A stretch of 49,066 bases of DNA, from contig JAFEDD010000038.1 of the NCBI GenBank assembly GCA_018241765.1, positions 1 through 49,066 of the forward strand, read 5' to 3'. The notes under the pieces are model-generated. The model saw only the letters and a list, made by a program, of their open reading frames with translations, made no database searches and was not told the origin of the DNA. Position numbers and translations under genes: made by a program. Source of the DNA: Pseudomonadota bacterium (GTDB taxonomy: Bacteria; Pseudomonadota; Gammaproteobacteria; Burkholderiales; Casimicrobiaceae). This document shows, piece by piece, positions 10,823 through 43,553 of this stretch. Numbering within the stretch: position 1 is the stretch's first letter; every line of letters starts with the position of its first letter.

Positions 10823-10943
10823 ATCAGCTTTTTGCTGGAAACCGCACCCACAAAGGGCTTGCCGCCACGAATGACACGAAATCGACTTTGCATGAAATTG
10901 ACTGCCAAGCCTGTTGTGGACGCCATTTCAGAAAAAAGGTGAT
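10823..10943 (+). repeat. dispersed palindromic element, copy A
   Basis: One of four related intergenic elements of 121-126 bp. The left arm contains ACCGCACCCACAAAGGGCTT at 10841-10860 and the right arm GCCAAGCCTGTTGTGGACGCC at about 10903-10923. These pair imperfectly when folded. The outer ends ATCA (10823) and TGAT (10943) also pair, and TCGA sits at the centre (10882-10885). This copy has the most arm mismatches. It separates cysE from the amidohydrolase gene. Orientation + is assigned from the central TCGACTTT. Confidence 0.8.
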
Positions 10944-10980
10944 AGCCCGGTCGCCGATCCGAACGTGCAAGTGCGCACGC

Positions 10981-12162
10981 TCAGGCCGAAGCCTGCAGGA
11001 AGCGTTGGGCCAGCGCCACCCACATCGCCGCGCCGACACCGATGTTGCGGTCATTGAAGTCGTAGCCCGGGTTGTGGACGGAGCAGGCGCCGACACCGTC
11101 GCCCTCGCCGTTGCCGATGAAGAAGTAGCAGCCAGGCACCTCGTCGAGCATGAAGGCGAAGTCCTCGCTGCCGGTGACCGGCGGCGCGTTCCAGCGCACC
11201 TTGCCGTCGCCGACCAGATCGCGCGCCACCGAGCAGGCAAACTCGGCCTCGGCCTGCGTGTTCACCAGCACCGGATAGCTGCGCTCGTAGTTCACCTCGG
11301 CGCGCAGCCCGAAGCTCTCCGCCTGCGCTTGCGCCAGCGCATGAATGCGCCGTTCGAGCAGATCGCGCACGTCGCGGTCGAGCGCGCGCACGCTGAGCTC
11401 CATCGTCGCGCTCGGCGGGATCACGTTGCTCGCCGCGCCCGCGTGCAGCATGCCCACCGTGACCACGGCCGCGTCGAGCGGGTCGACGTTGCGAGACACG
11501 ATCGTCTGCAGCGCCATGACGAGGCTCGCCGCGGCGACGATCGGGTCGGCCGTGCGCTGCGGCAGCGCGCCGTGGCCGCCGACGCCATGCAGCGTGATGA
11601 CGACGCGGTCGGACGAGGCAAGTGCGGCGCCCGGCCGCACATGGAACGTGCCCTGCGCGATGCCCGGCATGTTGTGCATGCCGAACACCGCGTCGCACGG
11701 GAAGCGCTCGAAGAGCCCATCCTCGATCATGCGCCGCGCCCCCGCCTTGCCCTCCTCGGCCGGCTGAAAGATCAGGTTCAGCGTGCCATCGAAACGCCCG
11801 CTGGCTGCAAGGTATTTCGCCGCCGACAGCAGCATCGCCGTGTGCCCGTCGTGCCCGCAGGCGTGCATGACGCCACGCCGCTTGCTGGCGTGGCCGAAGG
11901 TGTTGCTCTCGACGATCGGCAGCGCATCCATGTCGGCGCGCAAGCCGACGCGCTTGGCGCCGCTGCCGCGCACCAGCTGGCCGACGACGCCGGTGCCCCC
12001 GAGTCCGCGATGCACCGCGTAGCCGTAGCTTGCGAGCCGTTCGGCCACCAGGTCCGAAGTGCGGAATTCCTCATAGGCGAGCTCCGGCTCGCTGTGGATG
12101 TCGTGACGAATCGCGATGAATTCGTCGGCCTGCGCGTAAAGCGCGTCGAGCAGTGCGGCCAT
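10981..12162 (-). CDS. M20-family amidohydrolase (hippurate hydrolase-like)
   Basis: A 393-residue M20D peptidase/amidohydrolase expected to cleave an N-acyl amino acid or similar amide. Probable metal ligands lie in the family motifs HACGHDGH, QPAEEGKAGA, GMHNMPG and the C-terminal HNPGYDFND. The dimerisation-domain motif GVGGHGALPQRTADPIVAA is also present. The start at 12162 is supported by AGGAG 5 bases upstream. It lies about 100 bases downstream of the IclR regulator on the same strand, so the two may share a transcript and an inducer. The true substrate cannot be read from the sequence; hippurate, N-acetyl amino acids and indole conjugates are all used in this family. Confidence 0.9.
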   Translation of the reverse strand: MAALLDALYAQADEFIAIRHDIHSEPELAYEEFRTSDLVAERLASYGYAVHRGLGGTGVVGQLVRGSGAKRVGLRADMDALPIVESNTFGHASKRRGVMHACGHDGHTAMLLSAAKYLAASGRFDGTLNLIFQPAEEGKAGARRMIEDGLFERFPCDAVFGMHNMPGIAQGTFHVRPGAALASSDRVVITLHGVGGHGALPQRTADPIVAAASLVMALQTIVSRNVDPLDAAVVTVGMLHAGAASNVIPPSATMELSVRALDRDVRDLLERRIHALAQAQAESFGLRAEVNYERSYPVLVNTQAEAEFACSVARDLVGDGKVRWNAPPVTGSEDFAFMLDEVPGCYFFIGNGEGDGVGACSVHNPGYDFNDRNIGVGAAMWVALAQRFLQASA

Positions 12163-12268
12163 GTCGTCTCCTGAATGGGTCGGCAGTGAGCGGTTGCGTG
12201 GGCAGCGCAGATTAACCGATGTGCCGTGCGGCACCAGCGCGCGCGGTTCGGGCGATGAAATGCCGGCG

Positions 12269-13087
12269 TCAGGATTCGCCGGGCGCCTCGCGCGCACCGA
12301 GTCGATCGGACACCCGCCGCGCCGCGGCCCGCAGATCGGCAGCGATCAGGCTGCTCCACGTCGCATCGAACTCGGCGGCGGCGCCAAGCACGGTCAGCAC
12401 CAGCGCGATCTCGCCGGTGTGATCGAACACCGGCGCCGAAAACGCATTGACGCCCGGCACCGGGTGGCCCTGCGCACGCGCCAGCCCGCGCCTGCGCACC
12501 TGATCGAGCTCAGGCGCGATGGCGGCAAGCGCACGACGCAGTTCGCTGCGCTGGCGCGTGCTCGCCGAGGCAAGATGCGCCTCGATCTGCGCTGCACTGG
12601 CAAACGCGGCGAACACCTTGCCGGTCGCCGTCAGGTGCAGCTCCATCACGGTGCCCGTGCGCATGTTGACATACACCGGATGCACCGATTCGACCAGGCG
12701 CACGACGGTCGGCCCATGGTTGCCCCAGACGGCGATGGCCGTGGAGTGCCCCGTGCGCGCGGCAAGCCCCGTCATTTCGTTCGTTGCGACACGCACCGCG
12801 TCGAGACGGTTCAGCGCCAGGAGCCCGAGTTCGAGCGCGAACGCTCCGAGGTCATAGCGGCCGCTCACGGCATCCTGCTCGACGAGTCCGAGTCGGCAAA
12901 AGCTCACCAGATAGGCGTGCGCCTTCGCCGCCGGCATGCCGGCCGCCTCGGCAAGTTCCTTCAGCATCATCGCGCCGCTGCTGCGGGTGAGCGCCGCGAG
13001 CACGCGGCCACCGACATCGATCGATTGAATTCCGCGCTGTGTTTTGGCCATGTCGCGACGAGGGGCTTCGTTGACTTTGGTTGACAT
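12269..13087 (-). CDS. IclR-family transcriptional regulator
   Basis: A 272-residue regulator. The winged helix-turn-helix spans about 22-85 (QSIDVGGRVLAAL, MMLKELAEAAGMPAAKAHAYL) and a GAF-like effector domain about 95-265 (VWGNHGPTVVRLVE, TATGKVFAAF, PGVNAFSAPVFDHTGEIALVLTVLG). It is divergent from the MBL-fold gene and its catabolic run, and next to an amidohydrolase, so it probably senses a pathway metabolite. ATG at 13087 is used; ATG at 13051 (MAKTQRGIQSI) gives a 260-residue form and is nearly as likely. A perfect palindrome lies immediately upstream and may be its operator. Confidence 0.92.
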   Translation of the reverse strand: MSTKVNEAPRRDMAKTQRGIQSIDVGGRVLAALTRSSGAMMLKELAEAAGMPAAKAHAYLVSFCRLGLVEQDAVSGRYDLGAFALELGLLALNRLDAVRVATNEMTGLAARTGHSTAIAVWGNHGPTVVRLVESVHPVYVNMRTGTVMELHLTATGKVFAAFASAAQIEAHLASASTRQRSELRRALAAIAPELDQVRRRGLARAQGHPVPGVNAFSAPVFDHTGEIALVLTVLGAAAEFDATWSSLIAADLRAAARRVSDRLGAREAPGES

Positions 13088-13089
13088 CA

Positions 13090-13108
13090 AATTCGTTTAT
13101 AACGAATT
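13090..13108. promoter_or_regulatory. palindromic operator candidate for the IclR regulator
   Basis: A perfect inverted repeat of AATTCGTT and AACGAATT separated by TAT lies between the regulator and the divergent catabolic run. A related half site, TTAGCGAAT, follows about 20 bases further on. The region is unusually AT-rich for this window. TATAAA can be read on the minus strand inside the palindrome, which would let the bound protein block its own promoter. Confidence 0.65.
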
Positions 13109-13228
13109 AGTTTACTTTTAGCGAATCTGGCGCTAGCATGCAAGCGCGGCTCGATGATTGCGTCACCACGTTCGCGAACGTCGACATCGCTTTCCGCCAT
13201 TCCCCTCGCGCCGACTCGTTGCACCGCC

Positions 13229-14197
13229 ATGACCACGCAAAAGAAATTCGCTTCCCACGCCGACCTCGAAATCAAGAAGGTCAGCTTCGACAAGCTCTCG
13301 GAGAACGCCTACGCCTACACCGCCGAGGGTGACCCGAACACCGGCATCATCATCGGCGACGACGCAGTGATGGTGATCGACACCCAGGCCACGCCGGTCA
13401 TGGCGCAGGACGTGATCCGCCACATCCGCACGGTCACCGACAAGCCCATCAAATACGTCGTGCTGTCGCACTACCACGCGGTGCGCGTGCTTGGCGCCAG
13501 CGGCTACAAGGCGGAAGGCGCGGAGCACATCATCGCCAGCCACGACACCTATGAGCTGATCGTCGAGCGCGGCGAAGCGGACAAGGCCAGCGAGATCGGT
13601 CGCTTCCCGCGCCTGTTTCAGGCCGTCGAATCGGTGCCACCCGGCATGACCTGGCCGACCATGACCTTCAAGGGCGAGATGACGCTCTGGCTCGGCAAGC
13701 TCGAAGTGAAGCTGATGCAGGTGGGCCGCGGCCACACCAAGGGCGACACCATCGCCTGGATTCCGTCGCAGAAGGTACTGTTCTCGGGCGACCTCGTCGA
13801 ATTCGACGCCACGCCGTACGCTGGCGACGCGTATTACGAAGACTGGCCGGCCACGCTCGACGCCATCGCCGCACTGAAGCCCGACAAGTTGGTGCCCGGC
13901 CGCGGCGCGGCGCTGCAAACCCCGGAGCAGGTCGCCGCCGGCCTCAAGGGCACGCGCGAGTTCGTCAGCGAGCTCTACGCCTCGGTCAAAGCGGGCGCAA
14001 GAGCGGGCAAGGACTTGAAGAGCGTGTACCGCGAAACCTTCGATCGCCTGAAGCCGAAGTACGGTCACTGGGTCATCTTCGATCACTGCATGCCCTTCGA
14101 CGTGACCCGCGCCTACGACCTCGCGACCGGCCACGCCGACCCGCGCATCTGGACGGCCGAGCGCGACATCGAGATGTGGAAGGCGCTGGAGGGCTGA
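13229..14197 (+). CDS. metallo-beta-lactamase-fold hydrolase with altered metal motif
   Basis: A 322-residue MBL-fold protein. The first metal motif, normally HxHxDH, reads H81-Y-H83-A-V-R86, so the Asp and third His that hold the second metal are replaced by Val and Arg. His169 (GRGHTKGD) and Asp188 (SGDLVEF) are kept. One metal site could remain, so a mononuclear or non-hydrolytic role is possible. The C-terminal third is helical and contains HWVIFDHCMPFDVTRAYD. The ATG at 13229 is preferred; an upstream in-frame start would add 25 low-similarity residues. It leads the run encoding an aromatic hydroxylase and fumarylacetoacetase, so a role on a ring-cleavage product is an inference. Confidence 0.85.
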   Translation: MTTQKKFASHADLEIKKVSFDKLSENAYAYTAEGDPNTGIIIGDDAVMVIDTQATPVMAQDVIRHIRTVTDKPIKYVVLSHYHAVRVLGASGYKAEGAEHIIASHDTYELIVERGEADKASEIGRFPRLFQAVESVPPGMTWPTMTFKGEMTLWLGKLEVKLMQVGRGHTKGDTIAWIPSQKVLFSGDLVEFDATPYAGDAYYEDWPATLDAIAALKPDKLVPGRGAALQTPEQVAAGLKGTREFVSELYASVKAGARAGKDLKSVYRETFDRLKPKYGHWVIFDHCMPFDVTRAYDLATGHADPRIWTAERDIEMWKALEG

Positions 14198-14237
14198 GCC
14201 CCGCCGCAGCCCCCCCCGGTCAACGAGGAACGAAGCC

Positions 14238-15905
14238 GTGCTGAAGACCTACACCTACCCGAAGTACGCCTACCAGCGCCCACCCGAACTGAACGGCGCG
14301 GGTGGGCGCCGCCCGGTGCTCATCGTCGGCGCCGGTCCGGTCGGGTTGACGGCGGCGCTCGACTGCCATCTGCACGGCATTCCGGCCATCGTGCTCGATG
14401 ACGACGACACGGTGTCCGTCGGCTCGCGTGGCCTGTGTTACGCCAAGCGTGCGCTCGAAGTGCTCGACCGCGTGGGCGTCGGGCAGGCGGTGGTCGACAA
14501 GGGCGTCGAATGGAACGTCGGGCGCACGTTCTTCCACGACAACGAGGTCTACAGCTTCAACCTGATGCCCGAGCCCGACCACAAGCGGCCCGGCATGATC
14601 AACCTGCAGCAGTACTACCTCGAAGAGTATCTGGTCAATCGCTGCAACGAGGTCGGTGTCGAAATTCGCTGGAAGCACAAGGTCGTCTCGGTCACCCCGG
14701 CAGATGACCACGTCAGCCTGCAAGTGGAAACCGTCGACGGCGTCTACGCGATCGAGTGCGACTGGCTGATCGTGTGCGACGGCGCACGCAGCCCGGTGCG
14801 CACCATGATGGGCCTGGACATCGACGGCAAGGTTTTCATGGACCGCTTCCTGATCGCCGACGTGGTGATGAAGGCAGACTTCCCCGCCGAACGCTGGTTC
14901 TGGTTCGATCCGCCGTTTCATCGCAACCAGTCGGTCCTCTTGCACCGCGAAGCCGACAACGTCTGGCGCATCGACTTCCAGCTCGGCTGGGACGCCGACC
15001 CGCAGACCGAGCGGCAGCCCGAACGCGTCATCCCGCGCATTCAGGCGATGCTCGGCCGCGATCGCGAGTTCGAACTGGAGTGGGTCAGCGTCTACACCTT
15101 CCAGTGTCGGCGCATGAACCGCTTCAACCATGGCCGCGTGATGTTCGCAGGCGATGCCGCACATCAGGTCTCGCCCTTCGGCGCGCGAGGCGCGAACAGT
15201 GGCGTGCAGGACACCGACAACCTGATCTGGAAATTGAAGCTCGTCATCGATGGCAAGGCACCCGCCAGCCTGCTCGACACCTACTCCGACGAGCGCTGCT
15301 GGGCGGCGGACGAGAACATCCTCAACTCGACGCGCTCGACGGACTTCATCACCCCCAAGAGCAACGCCAGCAAGCTGATTCGCACGGCCGTGCTGCAACT
15401 GGCGCAAAAGCACGCCTTCGCACGCAAGCTGGTCAACTCGGGGCGCCTGTCGGTGCCGGCGTTCTACACCGCCTCCGTGCTCAACACGCCCGATGACGGC
15501 AGCTTCGCCGGCATGATGGAGCCGGGCGCACCGATGGACGACGCGCCGGTGCGCGTCAACGGTGTCGATGGCCGCAGCGGCTGGCTGCTCGATCATCTCG
15601 GCAACCGCTTCCAACTGCTGCTGTTCGTCGATGACCCGGCGACGCTCGACACTGCCCGGTTGCAGGCGCTGACCACGCAACCCGGTGCCATCGGCGTGCA
15701 GCCGATCGTGGTCACGCCGGGAACGGCCGCCGCGCCCGACATCCTCACGCTGCACGACAGCAACGGCCGCTTCGCGCAGCGCTACGACGCTCGCGACGGC
15801 ACGGTGTATCTGGCACGCCCCGATCAGCACGTCGCCGCCCGCTGGCGCCGCTTCGATGCTGCCGACATCGCAGCCGCATTGCGGCGCGCCACCTGCAACG
15901 CCTGA
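14238..15905 (+). CDS. FAD-dependent aromatic hydroxylase (MhpA/PHBH-like)
   Basis: A 555-residue group A flavoprotein monooxygenase. It has the N-terminal FAD motif [15 protein letters not shown] at about 28-42, the NAD(P)H/FAD segment WLIVCDGARSPVR near 175, and the second FAD motif RVMFAGDAAHQVSPFGARGANSGVQD near 300. The C-terminal thioredoxin-like domain typical of MhpA-type enzymes follows (about 430-550). Such enzymes hydroxylate phenolic rings at the expense of NAD(P)H. GTG at 14238 is the start, with GAGG 9 bases upstream. It is followed after 13 bases by the DUF2783 gene. The actual ring substrate is unknown; a hydroxyphenyl acid giving homogentisate- or gentisate-like products would fit the downstream fumarylacetoacetase. 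Confidence 0.9.
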   Translation: MLKTYTYPKYAYQRPPELNGAGGRRPVLIVGAGPVGLTAALDCHLHGIPAIVLDDDDTVSVGSRGLCYAKRALEVLDRVGVGQAVVDKGVEWNVGRTFFHDNEVYSFNLMPEPDHKRPGMINLQQYYLEEYLVNRCNEVGVEIRWKHKVVSVTPADDHVSLQVETVDGVYAIECDWLIVCDGARSPVRTMMGLDIDGKVFMDRFLIADVVMKADFPAERWFWFDPPFHRNQSVLLHREADNVWRIDFQLGWDADPQTERQPERVIPRIQAMLGRDREFELEWVSVYTFQCRRMNRFNHGRVMFAGDAAHQVSPFGARGANSGVQDTDNLIWKLKLVIDGKAPASLLDTYSDERCWAADENILNSTRSTDFITPKSNASKLIRTAVLQLAQKHAFARKLVNSGRLSVPAFYTASVLNTPDDGSFAGMMEPGAPMDDAPVRVNGVDGRSGWLLDHLGNRFQLLLFVDDPATLDTARLQALTTQPGAIGVQPIVVTPGTAAAPDILTLHDSNGRFAQRYDARDGTVYLARPDQHVAARWRRFDAADIAAALRRATCNA

Positions 15906-15918
15906 CCGGGAGCCAAGC

Positions 15919-16146
15919 ATGCCGCTGCAACTCGATCCGAACTTTCACCAGCCAGGACATCGCTATCACCGCGATTTCTCTCCGGGCGATGACTTCTACC
16001 AGCTGCTGATCGACGCCCATCGCGACCTGAGCGACGAGCACAGCGCGCTGCTCAATGCGAAGCTCGTCTTGCTGCTCGCCAATCACATCGGCAACCTCGA
16101 CATCCTGCGCGAAGCCATGCAGGTCGCGCGCGACGACACCGCCTGA
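15919..16146 (+). CDS. DUF2783 small protein
   Basis: A 75-residue cytoplasmic protein, recognised as DUF2783 from its segment PNFHQPGHRYHRDF and its helical SDEHSALLNAKLVLLLANHIGN. The start at 15919 has GGGAG about 9 bases upstream and lies 13 bases after the hydroxylase stop. Proteins of this family commonly follow FAD-dependent aromatic hydroxylases, so an accessory or small-subunit role is inferred. No catalytic residues can be assigned. Confidence 0.85.
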   Translation: MPLQLDPNFHQPGHRYHRDFSPGDDFYQLLIDAHRDLSDEHSALLNAKLVLLLANHIGNLDILREAMQVARDDTA

Positions 16147-16297
16147 CCCATGCCATCACCGCTTCCCCCGTAGGTTCGGACCCGGCCGCGATTCGTCGCA
16201 ACGGCGTTCATCCGCGTTGCCCGACCGCGCCGGCCCGCAACCTTCGCGTCCGTCCGTGGCCAGCCAGCCTAACCACGTTTTTTCCAAGGAGAGTCTC

Positions 16298-16843
16298 ATG
16301 CTCGTTCAACGTCTTCATCACGTCGCCTACCGCTGCCTCGACGCCAAACAGACCGTCGAGTGGTACAAGAAGCACCTCGACATGGATCTGGTGCTCGCCA
16401 TCGCCGAGGATCGGGTTCCCTCGACCGGTGAACCGGACCCCTACATGCACATCTTTCTCGATATGGGCCAGGGCAATGTGCTCGCGTTTTTCGAACTGCC
16501 GAACAGCCCCACCATGGGCCGCGACGAGAACACGCCGCGCTGGACGCAGCACCTCGCGATGAAGGTCGACTCACTCGACACGCTGATGAAAGCCAAGGCT
16601 CGGCTCGAAGCCGGTGGTGTCGACGTGCTCGGCCCGACCGACCACACGATCTTCAAGTCGATCTATTTCTTCGACCCCAACGGGCATCGCCTCGAACTGG
16701 TCGCCGATACCGCAACGCCCGACATGAAACGCAAGCTCGATGAGGTCAAGTTCGACATGATCGAGGAATGGTCGCGCACCAAACGCGCACCGAAGCACGC
16801 CGCGTGGTTGCACGACGGCAGCATGAGCGGCGGCGGCCACTGA
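16298..16843 (+). CDS. VOC-family (glyoxalase/extradiol dioxygenase superfamily) protein
   Basis: A 181-residue vicinal oxygen chelate protein with one beta-alpha-beta-beta-beta pair. Likely metal ligands are His in LHHVAYRC, Glu in LAFFELPN, His in WTQHLAMKV and Glu in GHRLELV, the usual His/Glu set for Fe, Mn or Ni. AAGGAGAG lies directly before the ATG. About 150 bases without a gene separate it from the DUF2783 gene. In this run it stands between a ring hydroxylase and fumarylacetoacetase, where a ring-cleaving dioxygenase would be expected. It could therefore be that enzyme, but a lyase or isomerase role is equally open. Confidence 0.88.
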   Translation: MLVQRLHHVAYRCLDAKQTVEWYKKHLDMDLVLAIAEDRVPSTGEPDPYMHIFLDMGQGNVLAFFELPNSPTMGRDENTPRWTQHLAMKVDSLDTLMKAKARLEAGGVDVLGPTDHTIFKSIYFFDPNGHRLELVADTATPDMKRKLDEVKFDMIEEWSRTKRAPKHAAWLHDGSMSGGGH

Positions 16844-16862
16844 ACGGAGCCGACACGACGAC

Positions 16863-28150: not shown

Positions 28151-28276
28151 TCAGCAACTTTTCTCCATAAACCGCATCCACAACGGGCTTGTCGGCACAT
28201 TTCATGCAAACTCGACTTTCGAACAATCCGAGCTGCAAGCCCGTTATGGATGCGCTTTTTGCAGCAAAGTTGTTGA
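28151..28276 (+). repeat. dispersed palindromic element, copy B
   Basis: One of four related elements. CGCATCCACAACGGGCTTG at about 28173-28191 pairs with CAAGCCCGTTATGGATGCG at 28236-28254 with one mismatch, and the outer ends TCAGCAACTT and AAGTTGTTGA pair with one mismatch. TCGA is at the exact centre (28212-28215). It lies upstream of the toxin-antitoxin pair, just beyond the nif3 stop. Confidence 0.88.
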
Positions 28277-28334: not shown

Positions 28335-29138
28335 TCAGACCGGCGAATTGACGTCGATGAACTGGTAGGTGATGCCGAAGCGCTGCACGAGATGGCCGCC
28401 CAGCGCGGCGACGCCGTCGCGCTCGGTGGCGTGGTGGCCGGCGGCGATCAGCGTGATGTTCGATTCGCGCGCCTGATGCACGTGCTGCTCGCTGATTTCG
28501 CCGGTGATGAAGGCATCGGCGCCCGCCGCGATGGCCTCGCCCAGCAGCGAGCCACCGGCGCCGGTGCACCAAGCGATGGTGCGGATCGGCCGATCGGGAT
28601 GCGAGAAGAGCGTGACGCGCCGCCCGAAGTGCCGCGCGACATAGGCCGCCAGCACCGTGCAACCGACCGTCGCGTTGACGCCGAGCCGCCCGAGCGTGAC
28701 GAGCCCCGCCTCACCGCAAGTACCCGTGGGCGACAGGCCGAGGCGGCGGCCGAGGCAGGCGTTGTTGCCCACCTCGGCGTGCACGTCGAGCGGCAGGTGA
28801 TAGGCGTAGAGATTGATGTCGTGCGCCAAGAGTGCCGCCACGCGCTCGCGGTGATAGCCCACCAGTGCGGGGCTGTCGCCCTTCCAGAAGAGACCGTGAT
28901 GGACGAGCAGCGCATCGGCCTTCATGGCGATCGCCTGTTCGATCAGGGCCTTGTTGGCGGTCACGCCGACCACCACATGGGAAACCATGTCGCGGCCCGC
29001 GACCTGCAGCCCGTTGAACGCTGCGTCCTTGAAGGCGCGGACGTTGAGAAAGTCATCGAGATGGCGCGCCAGTTCATCGCGGGCCACGCTGCGGCGGGCG
29101 AGCGCGGCGGCGTCGGTCGGGCTCGGGATGGATTGCAT
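28335..29138 (-). CDS. Nif3-like dinuclear metal centre protein
   Basis: A 267-residue NIF3/YbgI family protein forming hexameric rings with two metals per subunit; its cellular role is debated. Probable metal ligands lie in LLVHHGLFWKG, YHLPLDVH and the C-terminal AAGHHATERDGV, and GEISEQHVHQA is also conserved. The start at 29138 (MQSIPSPTDAAAL) is the nearest ATG to the conserved region; no ribosome site is obvious. It is divergent from the htrA gene, with 132 bases between start codons. In many betaproteobacteria nif3 precedes petABC directly; here asd and a toxin-antitoxin pair lie between them. Confidence 0.92.
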   Translation of the reverse strand: MQSIPSPTDAAALARRSVARDELARHLDDFLNVRAFKDAAFNGLQVAGRDMVSHVVVGVTANKALIEQAIAMKADALLVHHGLFWKGDSPALVGYHRERVAALLAHDINLYAYHLPLDVHAEVGNNACLGRRLGLSPTGTCGEAGLVTLGRLGVNATVGCTVLAAYVARHFGRRVTLFSHPDRPIRTIAWCTGAGGSLLGEAIAAGADAFITGEISEQHVHQARESNITLIAAGHHATERDGVAALGGHLVQRFGITYQFIDVNSPV

Positions 29139-29270
29139 AATAGAAGAGGGTTCAACGGCGCGCATGGCTTCTTTCACGCATTCACCCGCCCGGGCCCAGC
29201 GTCCGGGGGTCGCGCCGTGCGCGGCGAGGTGCTGCTTTTTCGGCCACTGTTACCCGGCGGGAGTTTGACG

Positions 29271-30473
29271 ATGCTGCGACGATTATGGCTGGTTTTTGCT
29301 CAGGTCTGCACGGTTTGTGTCGCCCTGATCTTCACCGTGAGCACGCTGCGGCCAGAGTGGCTCGCGCGAAGCCCCGCCGCGCCCGCGCCGCACGCACCGG
29401 CCCCCACCGCGTCGGCCTCGTCGCCATCGGCCCCGGTGACGCCCGTTGCCGTGGGCGGCAAGCCGGCTGACGCGGCGTCGGTATCGGTCGGGGGCTTCCG
29501 CCGCGCTGCCGAGCGCGCGCTGCCCTCGGTGGTGAAAATTGCCACCAGTGTGCGTCGCCCTCGCGGCTCCGTCGACAATCCCTTCGACCCCCAGAGCTTC
29601 TTCGGAAACCGCCGCGAGGCCGATCGGCAGACCGTGCTCGGCGAAGGCTCGGGCGTCATCGTGCGCCCCGACGGCTACATCCTGACCAACAACCATGTGC
29701 TCGAAGGCGCGCAGCAGGTGCAGGTGGAACTCTCCGACCGCCGCGTGCTGCCGGCACGTCTGATCGGCACCGACGCACTGACCGATCTCGCCGTCATCAA
29801 GGTCGAGGCGAACGCGCTGCCCGCGGTGCCGCTCGGTGACTCGCAGGCGCTGCACGTCGGCGACATCGTGCTTGCGATCGGCAACCCCTTCGGCGTGTTC
29901 GGCAACACGGTGACCATGGGCATCGTCAGCGCACTCGGCCGCACGCAGATCGCCGAAGGCAATCCCTTCGAGAGCTTCATCCAGACCGACGCCGCCATCA
30001 ATCAGGGCAACTCGGGCGGCGCGCTGGTCAACGTGCAGGGCGAGCTGGTCGGCATCAATTCGGCGATCTTCACCCGCACCGGTGACTTCTCCGGCATCGG
30101 CTTCGCCATCCCGACCGCCATCGCGCAGCCCATCATGGAGCAATTGATCGCGCACGGCGAAGTCAAACGCGGCTACATCGGCGCCAACCTCGGCCCGGTG
30201 ACGCCGGAGATCGCCGCTCGCCTCGCGCTGAAGCAGACCGGTGGCGCCTTCGTCGCGGCGGTGCTCGACGGCGCGCCGGCCAGCCGTGCGGGGCTGCGCG
30301 TGAACGACGTCATCGTCGAAGTGGACGGCCGGGCAACCCAGGAACCCGCCGACGCCATCAACACCATCGCCATGAGTGCGCCCGAGCAGACGATTCCGCT
30401 CAAGGTGCTGCGCGGTGGTGAAACCGTCGATCTGAAAATCACGCTGGGTCGGCGGCCGCAGCCGCGGCGCTGA
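29271..30473 (+). CDS. HtrA/DegQ-like periplasmic serine protease with one PDZ domain
   Basis: A 400-residue trypsin-like protease. An N-terminal hydrophobic anchor (about 5-25) is followed by a Pro/Ala-rich spacer, the protease domain (about 75-285) and a single PDZ domain (about 295-395). The catalytic triad is His142 (TNNHVL), Asp172 (LTDLAVIK) and Ser248 (GNSGGAL). One PDZ and an uncleaved-looking anchor make it DegS-like in layout, although no RseA-related genes are near. The ATG at 29271 has GGGAG 9 bases upstream. It is convergent with tatC, as is common in betaproteobacteria where htrA lies beside the Tat genes. Confidence 0.94.
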   Translation: MLRRLWLVFAQVCTVCVALIFTVSTLRPEWLARSPAAPAPHAPAPTASASSPSAPVTPVAVGGKPADAASVSVGGFRRAAERALPSVVKIATSVRRPRGSVDNPFDPQSFFGNRREADRQTVLGEGSGVIVRPDGYILTNNHVLEGAQQVQVELSDRRVLPARLIGTDALTDLAVIKVEANALPAVPLGDSQALHVGDIVLAIGNPFGVFGNTVTMGIVSALGRTQIAEGNPFESFIQTDAAINQGNSGGALVNVQGELVGINSAIFTRTGDFSGIGFAIPTAIAQPIMEQLIAHGEVKRGYIGANLGPVTPEIAARLALKQTGGAFVAAVLDGAPASRAGLRVNDVIVEVDGRATQEPADAINTIAMSAPEQTIPLKVLRGGETVDLKITLGRRPQPRR

Positions 30474-33580: not shown

Positions 33581-33706
33581 ATCAACGACTTTTCTCTGGA
33601 AGCCGCATCCATGACGGGCTTCGCGCCGAAAAACATCGAAAGTCGGGTTTTCGCCGAATCGCGCTCCAAGCCCTTCATGGATGCGCCTTTCAAGGAAAAG
33701 TTGTAT
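33581..33706 (-). repeat. dispersed palindromic element, copy C (reverse orientation)
   Basis: One of four related elements. GCCGCATCCATGACGGGCTT (33602-33621) pairs with AAGCCCTTCATGGATGCGC (about 33668-33686) almost perfectly, and the outer parts around CGACTTTTC and GAAAAGTTG pair as well. Its centre reads TCGG rather than TCGA, at the symmetrical point (33643-33646). The central CGACTTTCG is on the minus strand, so this copy is inverted with respect to the others. It fills the gap between the hisI start and the maiA stop, ending 5 bases short of the latter. Confidence 0.88.
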
Positions 33707-33710
33707 CGCA

Positions 33711-36227: not shown

Positions 36228-36244
36228 CCCGGCTTCAGACGAGG

Positions 36245-36475: not shown

Positions 36476-36495
36476 CTCGGTTCGTCCTCGGGTTG

Positions 36496-36705: not shown

Positions 36706-36723
36706 AAAAACCCGTCGAGCGGG
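36706..36723 (-). terminator. possible intrinsic terminator after ribE
   Basis: On the minus strand CCCG, a 5-base loop and CGGG are followed by TTTTT, beginning 12 bases beyond the ribE stop. The stem has only 4 pairs, so it would be weak. Confidence 0.4.
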
Positions 36724-36734
36724 ATCGGCGCCGA

Positions 36735-37340
36735 CTAGCGAACCGAATCGCCCAGCATCCGCTCCACGTAGCGCGCGATGGTGTCGATTTCGATGTTCAC
36801 GCGCCCGCCCTGCTTCAGTTCACGCAGGTTGGTGACCTCGAAGGTGTGGGGAATGACGTTCACCTGAAACCGCGTGGCCGTGGCGGTGTCGGCGACGGCA
36901 TTCACCGTGAGGCTGATGCCGTTCACCGTGATCGAGCCCTTCGGCGCGATGAACCTGCCCAGAGGCGCCGGCACTTCGACTTCCAGCAGCCAGCTCTCGG
37001 CGCGGTTCGTCCACTGCGTGACGACGCCGGTCGCATCGACGTGGCCGGTGACGAGGTGGCCACCGAGCCGGTCGGCAAGCGTCAGCGATTGTTCGAGATT
37101 GACCAGGGCGCCGACTTCCAGCCCGGTGACGATGCCGAGCGTGTGCGCCGAGACATCGGAGCGCAACACACCCGGCGCTTTCTCGACGATCGTCAAACAG
37201 CATCCCGAATGCGCAATCGAGTCGCCGATGGCGACATCATCGAGCGGCCAGTCGCCGCAGGCGACGGTGATGCGCTGGCCGTCGCCGACGGCCTGATGGG
37301 AGGTCACACGACCGAGTCCGGTCACGATTCCGGTGAACAT
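36735..37340 (-). CDS. ribE: riboflavin synthase alpha subunit
   Basis: A 201-residue enzyme that turns two 6,7-dimethyl-8-ribityllumazine molecules into riboflavin. It is made of two similar halves: MFTGIVTGLGRV...GDSIAHSGCCLTIV and GGHLVTGHVDATGVV...GSITVNGISLTV, with the second hinge segment TFEVTNLRELKQGGRVNIEID. Lumazine synthase (ribH) and ribBA are encoded upstream in the same direction. It follows ribD by about 20 bases. Confidence 0.96.
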   Translation of the reverse strand: MFTGIVTGLGRVTSHQAVGDGQRITVACGDWPLDDVAIGDSIAHSGCCLTIVEKAPGVLRSDVSAHTLGIVTGLEVGALVNLEQSLTLADRLGGHLVTGHVDATGVVTQWTNRAESWLLEVEVPAPLGRFIAPKGSITVNGISLTVNAVADTATATRFQVNVIPHTFEVTNLRELKQGGRVNIEIDTIARYVERMLGDSVR

Positions 37341-37360
37341 GGCACCCTCTTGCTTGGTGT

Positions 37361-38455
37361 TTACTTGCGGCGCAACAGCACGCGCACATCGTCGCCGACG
37401 CGCCCGACGTCATGCAGGTCAAACGCGATGGCGTCAGCGAGCGTGGCCGGCGCCGCCAGCGAGAACATCTCGCGGGCGTCGCGGCCAAGCAGGCGCGGCG
37501 CAAGGTAGATCAGCAGTTCATCCACCAGTCCGGCGGCGATCAACGGCCCCATCAGGCGTGCGCCCGCCTCGACATGCAGTTCGTTGATGCCACGCGCCCC
37601 GAGGTCGCGCAGCGCTCTGGGCAAATCGATCTTGGTCGGTGCCGACGCGTCCGGCAGGCGCACGATCTCCACGTTGCTCGGCAGGCCCACGCTGACCTCG
37701 TCCGAGCAATACACGAGCGCGCCGCCCTGCAACACCTTGGCGTTCGGTTGCAGCGAGCCCTGATGATCGAACACCACCCGCAGCGGCTGCCGCAGCGGCA
37801 GCACGGTCGACACGCCACGCACGGTCATCTGCGGGTTGTCACGCTGCACGGTGCCGCTGCCGGTGAGCACCGCGCAGGCACGCGCCCGCCAGCGGTGGCC
37901 ATCGCGGCGCGCCTCCTCGCCGGTGATCCACTTCGATTCGCCATCGGCCAGTGCCGTGCGGCCATCGATGCTCGCGGCTACCTTGCAGCGCACCCACGGC
38001 AACCCCGTCTGCATGCGCTTGATGAAGCCGATGTTGATCTCCGCCGCCTCCTGCGCAAGGAGGCCCACGCGAACCTCGATGCCAGCCTCTCGCAGCCGCT
38101 CGAATCCGGTGCCGCTGACGTTGGGGTTCGGGTCTTCCATCGCGGCGACGACGCGCGACACGCCAGCGCCGATCAACGCCTCGGTGCACGGCGGCGTCTT
38201 GCCGAAGTGATTGCACGGTTCGAGCGTCACATAGGCCGTCGCGCCGCGCACATCGATGCCCTTGGTGCGCGCGTTGCGCAGTGCATGCGCTTCGGCGTGG
38301 GCGTCGCCCGGCCGCTGCGTGAAGCCCTCGGCAAGCACCTCGCCGTCGCGCACCAGCACGCAGCCGACGCGCGGGTTCGGCGTCGCATGGTTCATCGCCA
38401 GCGCGGCCAGCGCCAGCGCGCGACGCATGTGCGCCTCGTCGATCGCGCTAAACAT
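37361..38455 (-). CDS. ribD: bifunctional riboflavin deaminase/reductase RibD
   Basis: A 364-residue bifunctional enzyme of riboflavin synthesis. The N-terminal deaminase domain (about 1-145) has the zinc motif HAEAHAL and [11 protein letters not shown]. The C-terminal reductase domain (about 150-364) has [21 protein letters not shown], a [15 protein letters not shown] segment and [14 protein letters not shown]. It starts at 38455, overlapping the nrdR stop by 8 bases, so translation is coupled. Confidence 0.96.
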
Positions 38456-38951
38456 CGCGCGCCTTGCGTGCAGGCGCCTTGCGGGCGCCACGGGAGGCGG
38501 CCGGCCGCTCGACTTCGTGCAGGGCCGAGCGGAAGTCCTCGACGTCCTGAAACGCCTTGTAGACGGAGGCGAAGCGGATGTAGGCCACCTTGTCGAGCTT
38601 GTAGAGCTCCGCCATCACCATCTCGCCGATGGTGCGCGAGGTGATTTCGCGCTCGCCAAGGCCATGGACATTGGCGACGATGCGCGCGATCGCCTGATCG
38701 ACGTATTCGGTTGGCACGAAGCGCTTGTGCAGCGCGCGGTTGAAGCCGGTGCGGATTTTCTCGACGTTGAAGTCGATGCGCGTGCCGTTGCTCTTGATGA
38801 CCTGCGGCATGCGCATCTCCACCGTCTCGAACGTGGTGAAGCGCTTGTCGCATTCGGCGCACTTGCGGCGACGGCGAATGGCGTCGCCCGACTCGGAAAC
38901 ACGCGAGTCGATCACCTGGGTTTCAGCGGAACCGCAGAACGGGCATTTCAT
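38448..38951 (-). CDS. nrdR: transcriptional repressor NrdR
   Basis: A 167-residue repressor of ribonucleotide reductase genes. The zinc ribbon has C3-P-F-C6 and C31-A-E-C34, followed by the ATP-cone domain (about 49-140, [19 protein letters not shown] and [11 protein letters not shown]). The Ala/Arg-rich tail (about 150-167) is longer than usual. NrdR binds ATP/dATP and regulates through NrdR boxes. It overlaps ribD, the common arrangement in beta- and gammaproteobacteria. Confidence 0.96.
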
Positions 38952-38994
38952 GCACGCACCAAGCCACGACGACAGAGACGCCCAGTGTATCGGG

Positions 38995-39525
38995 TCAGCG
39001 TGCGTGCGGCTCCGCCCGGCGAAGCAGTTCACTCAGCACGACATTGACGCTTTGTTCGCGCACCGCGCTGCGATCGCCGGGCAGGTGGAGGCGTCGGGTG
39101 ACGAGCTGCGGCGATGGCGCCGACGCCTGCGCAAAGCCGAAGCAGACGGTGCCCACCGGCTTGTCGCGACTTCCGCCGCCGGGCCCCGCGATGCCGGTGA
39201 CGGCATAGGCGAGCGTCGCCCGGCCGCCGCTGCGATGCAGCGCGCCCAGCGCCATCTCGGCGGCGGTCTCGACGCTGACCGCGCCGTGCGTGGCGAGCGT
39301 GGACGCGCTCACCCCCAACAAGGTCTGCTTCGCCTCGTTGCTGTAGGTGACGCAGGCACCGTCGAACCACGCCGAGGAGCCGCCGACGCTGGTGATCGCC
39401 GCTGCGATCAGTCCGCCGGTGCAGCTCTCGGCGCCAGCGATGACGCAGCCACCCGTCATGCAGACACGACCGAGCCGCGCCGCCAGCGCCATCCACTCGT
39501 CGAACAGGGCATGCATCGACGCCAC
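38995..39525 (-). CDS. pncC: nicotinamide-nucleotide amidohydrolase PncC (CinA C-terminal family)
   Basis: A 176-residue CinA-like domain. [43 protein letters not shown] is the family core, with GTVCFGF and [19 protein letters not shown]-like segments following. It deamidates NMN in pyridine nucleotide salvage. The start is a GTG 2 bases after the pgpA stop; ATG at 39516 is an alternative. Only the C-terminal CinA domain is present, without the MoaB-like N-terminal domain, as is usual for PncC. Confidence 0.93.
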
Positions 39526-39527
39526 CG

Positions 39528-40028
39528 TCAGAACAGCCGTATCGCAAGCGCGATGACGAGAAGCGTCAAGAGCGCCGCGACCAGATCATCGAGCATGACG
39601 CCCACCGCGCCCTTGACGTGGCGGTCGGCCCAACCCACCGGGCCGGGCTTCAGGATGTCGAACAGCCGAAAGAGCAGGAAGCTCCACGCCTGAAGCCACA
39701 ATGAGCCGGGCAGCATGGCCGTCACCAACCCCATGGCGACGACCTCGTCGCAAACGATGGCGCCGTGATCGCTCTCGCCCAGCGCCCGTCCGGTGACGCC
39801 CGCGGCCCAGGTGCCGATCAGCAGCGCGCCGAGCAGACCGGCAAACAGCGTCGCGTCGTCGAGCAGCGAATGCAGCCAGCGCACGGCAAAGAGCCCGAGC
39901 AGCGTGCCGAAGGTCCCGGGCGCGAAGGGTGCGAGCCCGGTGCCGAAGCCGAGCGAAATGAAGTGCGCCGGATGCGACAGCATGAAGCGCAGCGTCGGCT
40001 GTCGACGCTCTGCGGTGACCTCACTCAT
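39528..40028 (-). CDS. pgpA: phosphatidylglycerophosphatase A
   Basis: A 166-residue membrane phosphatase removing the phosphate from phosphatidylglycerophosphate. Membrane helices flank FGTGLAPFAPGTFGTLLG and the metal-binding VCDEVVAMG, LFDILKPGPVGWADR and GVMLDDLVAA motifs characteristic of PgpA. It starts 8 bases inside the thiL 3' end, so the two are coupled. The open frame upstream is antisense-like and ignored. Confidence 0.95.
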   Translation of the reverse strand: MSEVTAERRQPTLRFMLSHPAHFISLGFGTGLAPFAPGTFGTLLGLFAVRWLHSLLDDATLFAGLLGALLIGTWAAGVTGRALGESDHGAIVCDEVVAMGLVTAMLPGSLWLQAWSFLLFRLFDILKPGPVGWADRHVKGAVGVMLDDLVAALLTLLVIALAIRLF

Positions 40029-41064
40029 GTGAAAAATGATCCCAGCCCTTGATGGCGATCTGCATGGGACGCGATTGTGCGTCAAGCACGCGGACCGTGG
40101 GCGCGCCGCCGGTGCGGCTGACACGACCGATGCAGGCGCCGGGGAGCGCATGCGCGGCCAGCAGGCGCGCGACTTCATCGTGGCGCGTGGGCGCCGCCGT
40201 GAACAACAGTTCGTAAGCGTCGCCGGTCGCCAAGAGGCAATGCTGCGCCATCTGCGCGCGCGCAATGCGGCGGCGTTCGCCGTCGCAAGCCACCGCGTCG
40301 ATCGCCGTCGCTGCCCACACGTCGCTGCGGTCGATCCCGGCGATGCCGGTGGGAATGGCCCCGATGTCGATGTCGATGTCGACGCCGGAGGCCGAAGCGA
40401 TGTGCTGCGCCTCGCTCAGCAAGCCGTCGGAGATATCGATGCAACTGCTGGCCACACCGCGCAGCGCGATGCCGAGCGCCACCCGCGCGGTGGGGCATTC
40501 GTAACGCTCGATCTGGGTCGCGCTCGCGACGATGGCCGGCTCGCCTGCACCATCGCGCTCGCGCAGCAGGCTCGCGAGCGCCCAGCCGGCATCGCCGAGT
40601 TCGCCGCTGACCCAGAGCTCGTCACCCGCGCGGGCGCCGCTGCGCGTCAGCGCCTGCGCGGGCGGCACGTCGCCGAGGGCGGTCAGCGTGATGGCCAGCG
40701 GGCCGCGCGTCGTGTTGCCGCCGACCAGTTCGATGCCGAACGCATCGAGCGCCGACCACAAACCACGGGCGAACGCGGCAACCCACGACGTATCGATTTC
40801 AGGCAGCGTCAGTGACAAGAGCGCATAGCGGGGCTTCGCCCCCATCGCGGCGAGATCGCTGCAATTGACGTGCACGACCCGGCGCCCAAGCCGCTCCGGT
40901 GCCAGCGAGGGCAGGAAGTGGCGCCCGAGGACGAGCGTGTCGGTCGTCATCGCGAACACGTTGTCCGGTGACGGCGCCACCAGCGCGCAGTCGTCGCCAT
41001 TGCCGAGCACCGCCGTGCCGCCACCGCGCTTGAAGAAGCGCTCGATCAGTTCGAATTCGGTCAT
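40021..41064 (-). CDS. thiL: thiamine-monophosphate kinase
   Basis: A 347-residue ATP-dependent kinase making thiamine diphosphate. GDDCALVAPSPDNVFAMTTDTLVLGRHF, VNCSDLAAMGAKPRYALLSLTLP and GGNTTRGPLAITLTALGDV form the PurM-like N-domain; IDISDGLLSEAQHIASASGVDIDID and ATGDAYELLFTA the C-terminal part. It lies between nusB and pgpA in the conserved nusB-thiL-pgpA order. Confidence 0.96.
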   Translation of the reverse strand: MTEFELIERFFKRGGGTAVLGNGDDCALVAPSPDNVFAMTTDTLVLGRHFLPSLAPERLGRRVVHVNCSDLAAMGAKPRYALLSLTLPEIDTSWVAAFARGLWSALDAFGIELVGGNTTRGPLAITLTALGDVPPAQALTRSGARAGDELWVSGELGDAGWALASLLRERDGAGEPAIVASATQIERYECPTARVALGIALRGVASSCIDISDGLLSEAQHIASASGVDIDIDIGAIPTGIAGIDRSDVWAATAIDAVACDGERRRIARAQMAQHCLLATGDAYELLFTAAPTRHDEVARLLAAHALPGACIGRVSRTGGAPTVRVLDAQSRPMQIAIKGWDHFSHE

Positions 41065-41100
41065 CGCGGCATCGCCCTCAGGCCGGCCCCGGGCCGACGA

Positions 41101-41592
41101 TCAGCGGGGCTTGCGCCTGCCCGCATCGGCGAGTTCGTCGGCACGCAGCAGCGGGGCGAGTTTGTCGAGCACGCCATTGACCCACTTGTGGCCGTCGGTG
41201 CCGCCGAAGGTTTTCGCCAGCTCGACCGCTTCGTTGATGACGACGCGATAGGGAATGTCGAGCCGGCTCTGAAGCTCCCAGGCGCCGATCAGCACGATGC
41301 TGCGTTCGATCGGGCTGATCTGCTCGAAGCTGCGATCGAGATGCGGGCGAACGAGATCCGCCAGCGCCTCGCCTTGCGTCGACACCGCGGTCCAAAGCTC
41401 ATCGAAGAACTCGCGGTCGACGCGTTTGAAGTCCGCGTCCGCCTCGCGATTGCGGCGAATGCTGAGCGCGTCGTGATCGGCAACGAAGCGCTCGTAGAGC
41501 GCCTGAACCGCGAACTCGCGCGACCAGCGGCGCGCGGACTTCGGGCGACGGGGCGGCGCTTCCGCCGCCGGGGCGTGGCCAGCGCTCGCCAT
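41101..41592 (-). CDS. nusB: transcription antitermination factor NusB
   Basis: A 163-residue all-helical protein. An extra charged Pro/Ala N-terminus (about 1-22) precedes the conserved SREFAVQALYERFVADHDA, and RSIVLIGAWELQSRLDIPYRVVINEAVELAKTFGGTDGHKWVNGVLDKLA is the family core. NusB works with NusE in rRNA antitermination. Its ATG overlaps the ribH stop by one base (TGATG), so translation is coupled. Confidence 0.96.
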   Translation of the reverse strand: MASAGHAPAAEAPPRRPKSARRWSREFAVQALYERFVADHDALSIRRNREADADFKRVDREFFDELWTAVSTQGEALADLVRPHLDRSFEQISPIERSIVLIGAWELQSRLDIPYRVVINEAVELAKTFGGTDGHKWVNGVLDKLAPLLRADELADAGRRKPR

Positions 41593-42065
41593 CAGCTTTC
41601 ACCGAACTGGGCATGCGCCCATTCCTGCAGCAGCGCCATCTCGACGGCGGCCTGCGCGGCCTCGAAGCCCTTCTGGGCGGCACGCTCGTTGGCCTGCGCC
41701 TCGGTGAGGGTCGTCAGCACGCCGTTGCCGATGGCGACGTCGAACTCGAGACCGACACGTGAAATGCCGCTGGCCGACTCGTTGCTGACCACCTCGAAGT
41801 GGTAGGTGTCGCCCTTGATGACGCAGCCGAGCGCAATCAGCGCATCGAAGGCTTCGGTGGCGGCCAGCGCCTGCAGCGCGAGCGGAATTTCGAGCGCGCC
41901 GGGCACCGTCAGTTCGGCGACGTCGCGCGCCTCGACACCCATTTCAGCCAGCGCCTTGCGGGCGCCCGCGAGCAACTGCTCACCGATCTCGGCGTTGAAG
42001 CGGGCCGTGACGATGCCGATGCGCAAGCCCGCGCCGCGCAGTTTCATGAGGGGTTGCAAAGACAT
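41592..42065 (-). CDS. ribH: 6,7-dimethyl-8-ribityllumazine synthase
   Basis: A 157-residue lumazine synthase. RIGIVTARFNAEIGEQLLAGA is at the start, followed by ARDVAELTVPGALEIPLALQALA, the conserved ALGCVIKGDTYHFEVVSNESASGI and IGNGVLTTLTEAQANERA, which hold the active-site residues (including His in the YHFE segment). It forms icosahedral or pentameric shells. The ATG at 42065 gives the family-like MSLQPLMKLRGAG start. It lies 44 bases after ribBA. Confidence 0.96.
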   Translation of the reverse strand: MSLQPLMKLRGAGLRIGIVTARFNAEIGEQLLAGARKALAEMGVEARDVAELTVPGALEIPLALQALAATEAFDALIALGCVIKGDTYHFEVVSNESASGISRVGLEFDVAIGNGVLTTLTEAQANERAAQKGFEAAQAAVEMALLQEWAHAQFGES

Positions 42066-42109
42066 GGGGCAATCCGGGAGGGGTTGGATGGAGTGATGTG
42101 CCGCGACCG

Positions 42110-43246
42110 CTACGCGTGTTCTTCGTAGGCTGTGACTTCGAGTTCGAAACCGGTCATCGAGGGCATGCGACGCGGACGCGCCAGCAGGCGCATGCGTCCG
42201 ACGCCCAGTCCGCGCAGGATTTGCGCGCCGATGCCATAGGTGCGCAGGTCCATGCGATGGGCATTGAGCGGCTCGGGGCTCAGCGCGCGTTCGAGCAGCG
42301 CACTCGCGCTCTCGCTGCGGTGGAGCAGCACCAGAACCCCCGCCTCCGCCTGCTGCAACCGGGCCAGCGCGTTGGGAATGCTCCACGCGTGGACGGATGA
42401 GTCGACATCGAGCGCATCGATGACCGACAGCGGCTCATGCACGCGAACGACCGTTTCCCGCTCGGGCGTCGGCGTGCCCTTGACAATCGCCAGATGCGTG
42501 GCATCCGCGAGCTTCTCGCGAAACACCTTCAGCACGAAACGGCCCTGCGGCGTGGTCAGCGGCCGCTCGCCGACACACTCGACCAATTGCTCGCGCGCCG
42601 CGCGGTACTGGATCAGATCGGTGATGGCCCCGATCTTCAGGCCATGTTCGCGCGCGAAGACGAGCAGATCGGGCAGCCGCGCCATGCTGCCGTCGTCCTT
42701 CATGACTTCGCAGATGACCGCGGCGGGCGTCAGGCCCGCCATGCGCGTGAGGTCGCACCCCGCTTCGGTGTGCCCGGCGCGCATCAGCACGCCGCCCGGT
42801 TGCGCCATGATCGGAAAGATGTGCCCCGGCTGCACGATGTCGGAGGGCTTCGCGTTGAACGCCACGGCGACTTGCACCGTGCGCGCGCGATCGGCGGCGG
42901 AGATGCCGCTCGAGACGCCTTCGGCCGCCTCGATCGACATCGTGAAATTGGTGCCAAAGCCCGAGCGGTTGTTCGCCGTCATCAACGGCAGATCGAGCTG
43001 GCGGCAGCGCTCCGCAGTCAGGGTCAAACAGATGAGACCACGCGCATGCCGCGCCATGAAATTGATCGCCTCGGGTGTGACAAAGTCGGCGGCAAGCACC
43101 ACATCGCCCTCGTTCTCGCGATCCTCCTCATCGACCAGAATCACCATGCGGCCGGCCTTGATCTCGGCGAGGATTTCCGGCACCGGCGACAACACGGTTG
43201 GGGATGCCGCGCGGACGGCGGCGAGGTTGGGCTTCGTGGTCGTCAT
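42110..43246 (-). CDS. ribBA: 3,4-dihydroxy-2-butanone-4-phosphate synthase with degenerate GTP cyclohydrolase II domain
   Basis: A 378-residue protein. The N-terminal RibB half (about 15-215) has the catalytic D39-E-E-D-R-E-N-E-G-D48, the HARGLICLTLTAERC region and the HTEAGCDL segment, so it should make the four-carbon unit of riboflavin. The C-terminal RibA-like half lacks the three zinc cysteines (normally in HSECLTGDVFGSLRCDCG) and the GTP-binding motifs, reading DSSVHAWSIPNALARL there instead. It is thus a RibBX-type protein, without GTP cyclohydrolase II activity. RibA activity must come from another gene. No FMN riboswitch is recognised upstream. Confidence 0.93.
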   Translation of the reverse strand: MTTTKPNLAAVRAASPTVLSPVPEILAEIKAGRMVILVDEEDRENEGDVVLAADFVTPEAINFMARHARGLICLTLTAERCRQLDLPLMTANNRSGFGTNFTMSIEAAEGVSSGISAADRARTVQVAVAFNAKPSDIVQPGHIFPIMAQPGGVLMRAGHTEAGCDLTRMAGLTPAAVICEVMKDDGSMARLPDLLVFAREHGLKIGAITDLIQYRAAREQLVECVGERPLTTPQGRFVLKVFREKLADATHLAIVKGTPTPERETVVRVHEPLSVIDALDVDSSVHAWSIPNALARLQQAEAGVLVLLHRSESASALLERALSPEPLNAHRMDLRTYGIGAQILRGLGVGRMRLLARPRRMPSMTGFELEVTAYEEHA

Positions 43247-43431
43247 GGCAAAGAGCGCGTCCCGATTCGAGAGGCCTCGATTCTAGTCCGCCGCATTGCA
43301 CAGACTCGAGCGCCCGCACCAGCGACGACGCCGCGCGGATCGCGCGCCAGCGTCACCCCGGCTTGCACGCGACGGCTCGACGTCGCTCTCGGGCGGCGGG
43401 ACATCGATGTCCAAAACCCTTGAAAACAAGC

Positions 43432-43553
43432 AGCAGCTTTTGTCAAAAACGACGTTTGTTACGGGCTTGGCGGCCGTTTTGCCAACAAGTCGACTTCGTA
43501 TCAAATTAGCCGCCAAGCCCGTTATGGATGCGGGTTTTGCCAACAAGTTGTAT
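43432..43553 (+). repeat. dispersed palindromic element, copy D
   Basis: One of four related elements, in the 392-base divergent gap between ribBA and the spermidine-synthase-like gene. The left arm includes TTACGGGCTTGGCGGC (about 43459-43474) and the right arm GCCGCCAAGCCCGTTATGGATGCG (about 43509-43532); these arms pair perfectly over the first 16 bases. Its outermost parts (AGCAGCTTTTG and CAAGTTGTAT) pair imperfectly. TCGA lies at 43490-43493, about the midpoint. The left arm has mutated from GCATCCA to GACGTTTG, showing independent drift. The rest of the gap holds no gene. Confidence 0.85.

Follow-up and report, generated by a model that had tools for sequence, protein, structure and literature searches.

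The 49,066-bp contig JAFEDD010000038.1 (assembly GCA_018241765.1; hereafter the window, meaning the whole stretch analyzed) of a gammaproteobacterium of the family Casimicrobiaceae hosts four copies of a ~122-bp dyad-symmetric DNA element, centred on AAAGTCGACTTT, which belongs to a large dispersed family. The family is restricted, at the sensitivity used, to one genus. Its members mostly hold the same positions in two species of the genus, and the element does not resemble an actively mobile one. We regard it as very probably a static, selected DNA site, and as probably read in the form of DNA rather than of RNA. The reading that we prefer is more tentative, and may be given a probability of about 0.4: the elements would make up a genus-specific system of several hundred fixed sites, which organise the chromosome and are read by a trans-acting complex.

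Structure and distribution of the element

Four segments had been singled out in the window by a sequence-only reading, and all are confirmed at their coordinates (given below for each copy): they measure 121-126 bp, are near-palindromic, mutually related and found in both orientations, with TCGA at the centre, or TCGG (plus strand) in the copy at 33581. The core common to the copies is GCATCCATAACGGGCTTG / CAAGCCCGTTATGGATGC. The consensus derived from 29 copies, AACAACTTTTTnnTGAAAnnCGCATCCATAACGGGCTTGnAGCnCGATTTnGnnnAAAGTCGACTTTnnGnnATTTnnGGCnCCAAGCCCGTTATGGATGCGGnTTTCnGCnAAAAGTTGTT, is an imperfect palindrome with a TCGA centre. The ends read CARCTTTT/AAAAGYTG; moving inward, each half-site is made up by CARCTTTT, (G)AAA, GGGCT, an AA-or-TT step and the central AAAGTCGACTTT, and is followed by its mirror image. 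Conserved blocks, in which several letters are nearly invariant, alternate with near-random spacers of constant length, 48 full copies spanning 146-148 bp, 12-bp flanks included.

Within its genome, of 3.24 Mb in 76 contigs, the window makes up contig C31. A profile search in a sample of 800,520 bp, about a quarter of this genome, gave 61 matches at E<1e-3 and none between E=1e-3 and 0.1, the best match in the reversed-sequence control having E=0.67; the family is far above chance level. The 61 matches correspond to 60 places, two being parts of one interrupted copy, and 48 are full-length. The number of elements in the genome is about 240 by extrapolation. The 10-mer AAGTCGACTT occurs 21 times in the same sample, against 0.2 expected from base composition, and all 21 occurrences fall within elements. 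Of 1290 candidates from the whole genome, at least 150 passed a covariance model at E<1e-19 (all of the 150 scored), both strands counted. A second member of the genus, G005, is available as a complete chromosome of 4.47 Mb, of which 980,000 bp were sampled. The sample contains 81 matches at E<=1e-5, a figure unchanged at E<=1 (best in the reversed control, 0.047), corresponding to about 370 elements per genome by extrapolation.

The family was monitored in further genomes, one per species and several of them fragmented, with a model built from several species and with strict filters, by which weak matches are lost. Elements were detected in 16 of the 17 genomes of the genus, in 0 of the 47 other genomes of the family and in 0 of the 273 other genomes of the class. 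The sole genus member lacking detected elements, G016, is a small assembly (2.6 Mb), likewise devoid of a Y1-transposase match. Searches with single copies found no match in phages, plasmids or E. coli, and blastn across 60 genomes, superseded by models R1 and R2, matched the genome of origin only. A pattern scan of GTDB contigs gave zero, and says little about relatives, the pattern being the core of this species. No description of the element was found in the open-licence literature searched.

Position, spacing and selection

Forty-one near-full-length elements on three contigs, at loci chosen deliberately for orthology, were compared with G005, and 33 were located there. Where both flanking genes were found, the matching gap contained an element in 25 of 26 cases (16 of 17 when only G005 gaps under 450 bp are counted). 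The chance expectation is roughly a fifth, based on 65 G005 elements and 291 intergenic slots measuring 100 bp or more. Mean protein identity between the two genomes is 76% over 55 syntenic pairs.

Copies avoid each other, strongly in G005 and moderately in the genome of origin. The spacing of the 65 G005 elements (6 partial) has a coefficient of variation of 0.60 vs. 0.97 expected; no neighbours lie under 2 kb (9.0 expected) and two lie under 4 kb (17.4 expected), none of the 5000 placements in intergenic slots used as null being as extreme. Copies covering at least 100 model positions in the genome of origin gave 0 neighbours under 2 kb, where 3.5 would be expected (P=0.03); below 4 kb there are 2 vs. 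7.7 (P=0.007). Mean spacing is 12-16 kb.

Genes were called in a crude way from hexamers, and several of the frames that elements overlap look spurious. According to these calls, the elements are mostly intergenic without being specific to convergent gaps. Of the 61 matches in the genome of origin, 49 fall between genes (in tandem in 28 cases, divergent in 12 and convergent in 9), 10 overlap a called gene and 2 are at contig ends; in G005, 59 copies are intergenic (31 tandem, 15 divergent, 13 convergent), and 6 more overlap gene calls. Divergent placement was found for 7 of 24 conserved elements. Elements in G005 are nearer to stops than to starts (median 33 vs. 92 bp), and convergent gaps are over-represented among them (13 of 59 intergenic copies vs. 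23 of the 239 gaps measuring 130 bp or more).

No young members of the family were seen among the full copies sampled in the genome of origin. Pairwise identity among the 48 full copies ranges from 0.57 to 0.81 (mean 0.71, maximum 0.814), and no pair exceeds 82%. A target-site duplication was not found: the best excess, a 2-bp match in 15% of the 48 copies vs. 5% expected, is the best among many offsets tried, uncorrected, and old insertions could have lost the duplication. Lack of near-identical copies, lack of target duplication and positions common with a relative all speak against recent mobility, which the sequence-only reading had considered, and a live miniature inverted-repeat transposable element (MITE) was rejected on these grounds. 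A mobile-element ancestry of the family is possible. Terminal inverted repeats, a MITE feature, are present, the entire element being one imperfect inverted repeat.

Columns of the alignment were divided into a framework (32 columns at least 70% identical in non-orthologous pairs) and free columns (57 columns under 40%). In 28 orthologous pairs the framework columns are 87% identical, and the free spacer columns 31%, vs. 29% in non-orthologous pairs (p=0.026), i.e. near saturation. Retention of the framework next to spacers at saturation suggests that purifying selection acts on the sites where they are. The earlier view of a large, dispersed and mostly intergenic family, under selection and with arms drifting independently, is supported. 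In the genome of origin the arms pair in 1832 of 2891 cells, vs. 1824 after shuffling (z=0.45). Columns 61-62 read AA or TT in 40 of the 48 copies, and columns 87-88 in 41, which suggests that a property of the double strand is being maintained. The extended core CATCCATAACGGGCTTG is found in most copies of the genome of origin, and G005 copies feature only a loose CATT....GGGCT, at positions that are largely common. Positions kept, with a consensus differing as a set, would be expected under co-evolution with one reader protein.

Other candidates were discarded. A protein-coding palindrome of the Rickettsia type is at odds with read-through frames that look like spurious antisense and with a conservation that is not codon-like, both judged by eye. 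Element ends resemble WATCARNNNNTTR, the consensus of IHF sites; exact matches are limited to 2 ends of 98 and 2 of 142. Within one mismatch, IHF-like sequences are found at 9% and 15% of ends vs. under 1% for the genome, and at both ends of the same element in 0 of 49 and 1 of 71 cases, and the idea was dropped.

Window copies and accompanying repeats

Copy a (10823-10943), a 121-bp dyad with centre ATCGAC, is located between called genes ending at 10687/10796 and 10981. Copy b (28151-28276, 126 bp) is upstream of a trypsin/PDZ gene (28392-30473). Copy c (33581-33706, 126 bp, centre TCGG) separates a hisI-like (PRA-CH) gene from a GST-domain gene, which we take to be SspA-like. Copy d (43432-43553, 122 bp), partly degenerate in its left arm, lies between a ribBA-like gene and 43639. 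A location outside genes, claimed earlier for all four, is likely, although crude gene calls overlap the copies at 28153 and 33584, open frames running into both; at 33584 the segment 33146-33580 encodes 144 residues, of which residue 45 is the first of the PRA-CH domain, in keeping with a gene that starts outside the copy. Ten window proteins neighbouring elements belong, when scanned, to unrelated families.

Among the genomes of the genus other than G006, copy b has counterparts at the equivalent locus in G001, G005, G012 and G015, together with a match of half length in G004; G002, G003, G007-G011, G013, G014 and G016, some on short contigs, gave no match. Copy c has a counterpart in the same gap in G001, G005, G006, G012 and G015 (gap of 1.9 kb), and weaker ones in G007 (E=1.3e-4) and G008 (E=0.01), that in G002 being recognised by eye only. 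The corresponding gaps of G009 and G016, of 45-48 bp, hold no element, and none lies beside hisI in G013.

Half-elements also occur. One palindrome half plus the centre is contained in a longer repeat (about 230-400 bp), found in the genome of origin at C22:54019, 202006 and 202750, C44:19710, C6:79199 and C69:14745; the half is therefore a separable unit. At C44:59719-59999 (locus L108) an element is split near model position 80 by an insert of ~155 bp with 13-bp inverted ends (TGCAGTGTTTCGC) and an apparent CTAG duplication, MITE-like by eye. This insertion exhibits features that are missing from the element.

A separate, GTAG-tagged REP (GTAGCCTCGATGCAACGAAGTGGAATCGAGG) is found in the same genome, with 27 strict matches in the 800-kb sample (C22:202225, C6:78819, C44:19202 and others), and is involved in a tandem array of ~143-bp units at C44:156697-157590. 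Two Y1-transposase-like (PF01797) genes, at C24:7282-7605 and C6:5166-5330, are possible partners of this REP. Genes for Y1_Tnp (PF01797), the domain of the RAYT transposases that go with REP and REPIN sequences, are present in 15 of the 17 genomes of the genus, and in 15 of the 16 that bear elements; they are missing in G009, where elements are present, and in G016, which is element-free, a pattern of co-occurrence only and within the genus. Elsewhere in the window, a 714-residue open frame (2312-4456) is made up in part by imperfect internal repeats of ~153 bp, six of which were listed as one family.

Possible readings of the element

The elements share with REP, BIME and REPIN sequences the nature of short dispersed intergenic palindromes present in hundreds of copies. 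REPs are said to be marked by GTAG or CGTC at the base of a short stem (PMC3733652), REPINs to have near-identical master copies and randomly distributed doublets (PMC3116915), and BIME-2 to bind gyrase (PMC6379681). The element differs, being a single unit of ~122 bp without near-identical copies among the 48, mostly at positions common to a second species, and with copies that keep apart in G005. It does not look like a REP, having no GTAG/CGTC tag (GTAG is carried by the separate repeat of the same genome), nor like a REPIN, given the maximum pairwise identity of 0.814 and a spacing that is non-random in G005, less clearly so in the genome of origin. ERIC, Correia/NEMIS, RUP and YPAL sequences are likewise intergenic inverted repeats of about 100-170 bp (PMC2229807); in the element, by comparison, no target duplication is seen, the consensus lacks TA ends, conservation is of the block-and-spacer kind and positions are common to a second species. 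As for ERIC itself, blastn of copy b against 20,395 E. coli records found nothing at E<=1. Strong gyrase sites, such as the SGS of phage Mu, are similar in having about 130 bp and phased arms around a 4-bp central step, but the element is found hundreds of times per genome, is genus-restricted and has nearly invariant letters, its binding by gyrase being only proposed. matS/MatP and parS/ParB are dispersed chromosomal DNA sites read by one protein, far shorter and fewer than the element, for which a single reader is a proposal.

In the system of fixed sites that we favour, the double-stranded framework would be recognised by a putative trans-acting protein complex, the 120 bp being perhaps bent or wrapped around the dyad, and the bound sites would mark or anchor chromosome segments of roughly 10-15 kb. 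Both the binding protein and the wrapping of the DNA are things we infer, and chromosome organisation is put forward tentatively as the role of the element. It is somewhat doubtful that the 120-bp dyad sites are an insulator- or anchor-like set, with orthologous positions and kilobase spacing, co-evolving with a single wrapping protein and setting ~10-kb domains. The sites would be vertically inherited, and, since one factor would read all of them, the whole set would drift together.

Several observations weigh against such a system. No binding protein was identified in this analysis. Nine of the 25 positive G005 gaps are wider than 450 bp, and among seven elements anchored by one flank only, three have an element at similar distance and four have none in the stretch. 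Copy d is missing from the orthologous 157-bp gap of G005. The C6:26918 element is likewise missing from G005, where its gap measures 63 bp vs. 191 bp here. Retention is patchy beyond G005, locus b being kept in 6 of 16 genomes and locus c in 8 of 12, the genome of origin counted in both. If partial copies are included, the avoidance in this genome becomes weaker, with 3 neighbours under 2 kb vs. 5.2 expected (P=0.21), 6 under 4 kb vs. 11.4 (P=0.03), and a non-significant coefficient of variation. The framework, whose columns were chosen by non-orthologous pairs, is likewise 87% identical in such pairs, and 38 of the 127 columns are intermediate and in neither class. In G005 the arms pair in 2200 of 4226 cells vs. 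2158 shuffled (z=1.74, P=0.047; core z=2.08). Two further observations are in favour of the system, with limits. The A/T content is phased around the dyad with a period of 9.5 bp (p=0.0005 and p=0.002); this is shorter than a helical turn, and information content peaks at a non-helical 13.75 bp. The predicted bend, obtained with a provisional dinucleotide angle table, is higher, at 44 and 46 degrees, than the 32 of other intergenic DNA (P=0.003, genome of origin) and the 35 of shuffled elements.

An attractive and more specific form of the same reading, though quite improbable, makes the elements strong DNA-gyrase sites: gyrase would wrap the element, TCGA being the 4-bp staggered cut and the arms lying on the GyrA C-terminal domains, and supercoil domains of ~10 kb would result. 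Gyrase wraps 120-140 bp and the cleavage preferences of type II topoisomerases are species-specific (PMC12324340), and the E. coli gyrase motif spans 130 bp and has a 4-bp cut, a central region and an array of periodic sequence in each of two arms (PMC6379681). The element resembles this motif in its length, in its central dyad of 4 bp and in the A/T phasing of its arms, and the spacing is near that of the 10-kb supercoil domains described (PMC3420936). A ~130-bp site with A/T-phased arms is found, its 9.5-bp period being below the reported 10-11. The gyrase motif is degenerate, whereas several letters of the element are nearly invariant, and this, together with the restriction to one genus at the sensitivity used, argues for an additional or a different reader. 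The elements might instead be ancient non-autonomous palindromic transposons, MITE- or REPIN-like, which spread in the genus and now stay in place, their copies decaying slowly or replicating rarely, with target immunity as the cause of the spacing. This is unlikely on balance. Presence and absence differ by about one element length at C6:26918 (63 bp in G005 vs. 191 bp), gaps of 45-48 bp are found in G009 and G016 where other genomes carry an element, retention is patchy across the genus, half-elements occur, six of them within a longer repeat, and Y1-transposase-like genes accompany the elements in 15 of 16 genomes, being absent from the element-free G016. Set against this are the 25 of 26 positions common with G005, the lack of any pair above 82% identity among 48 copies and of a target duplication, and a framework kept beside saturated spacers, which is not uniform decay. 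G009 has elements and no Y1 gene was found there, and the GTAG REP of the genome of origin might explain why Y1 genes are present. REPIN doublets are reported to be randomly distributed (PMC3116915), unlike the copies of G005.

An RNA-level element, either a bidirectional terminator or a hairpin stabilising transcripts, is very improbable. Copies a-c fold into long hairpins on both strands, copy d on one strand only, and in G005 elements follow stop codons at a short distance (a median of 33 bp), are over-represented in convergent gaps and show weak covariation of the arms. About a quarter of the elements, however, are between divergent genes (12 of 49 here, 15 of 59 in G005, 7 of 24 conserved ones), the consensus lacks a terminal U-tract, and the arms do not covary in the genome of origin. 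Neither the window, at gathering threshold, nor three loci holding five elements, at E<=0.1, gave an element match in Rfam 15; miRNA-like Rfam matches, elsewhere in locus L127 and below family thresholds, were set aside. The RNA hairpin suggested earlier was rejected as the main selected feature, arm pairing being at the shuffled level here and marginal in G005.

Bacterial supercoil domains of ~10 kb are, to our knowledge, usually described without fixed borders encoded in the sequence. If the elements do form a system of fixed sites organising the chromosome, whether domains are encoded in sequence would become directly testable in a genus with several hundred conserved, dyad-symmetric sites spaced at about that scale. 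Hundreds of sites, at common positions and with a consensus that differs as a set between species, should lead to the reader protein, in the search for which G016 is a natural negative.

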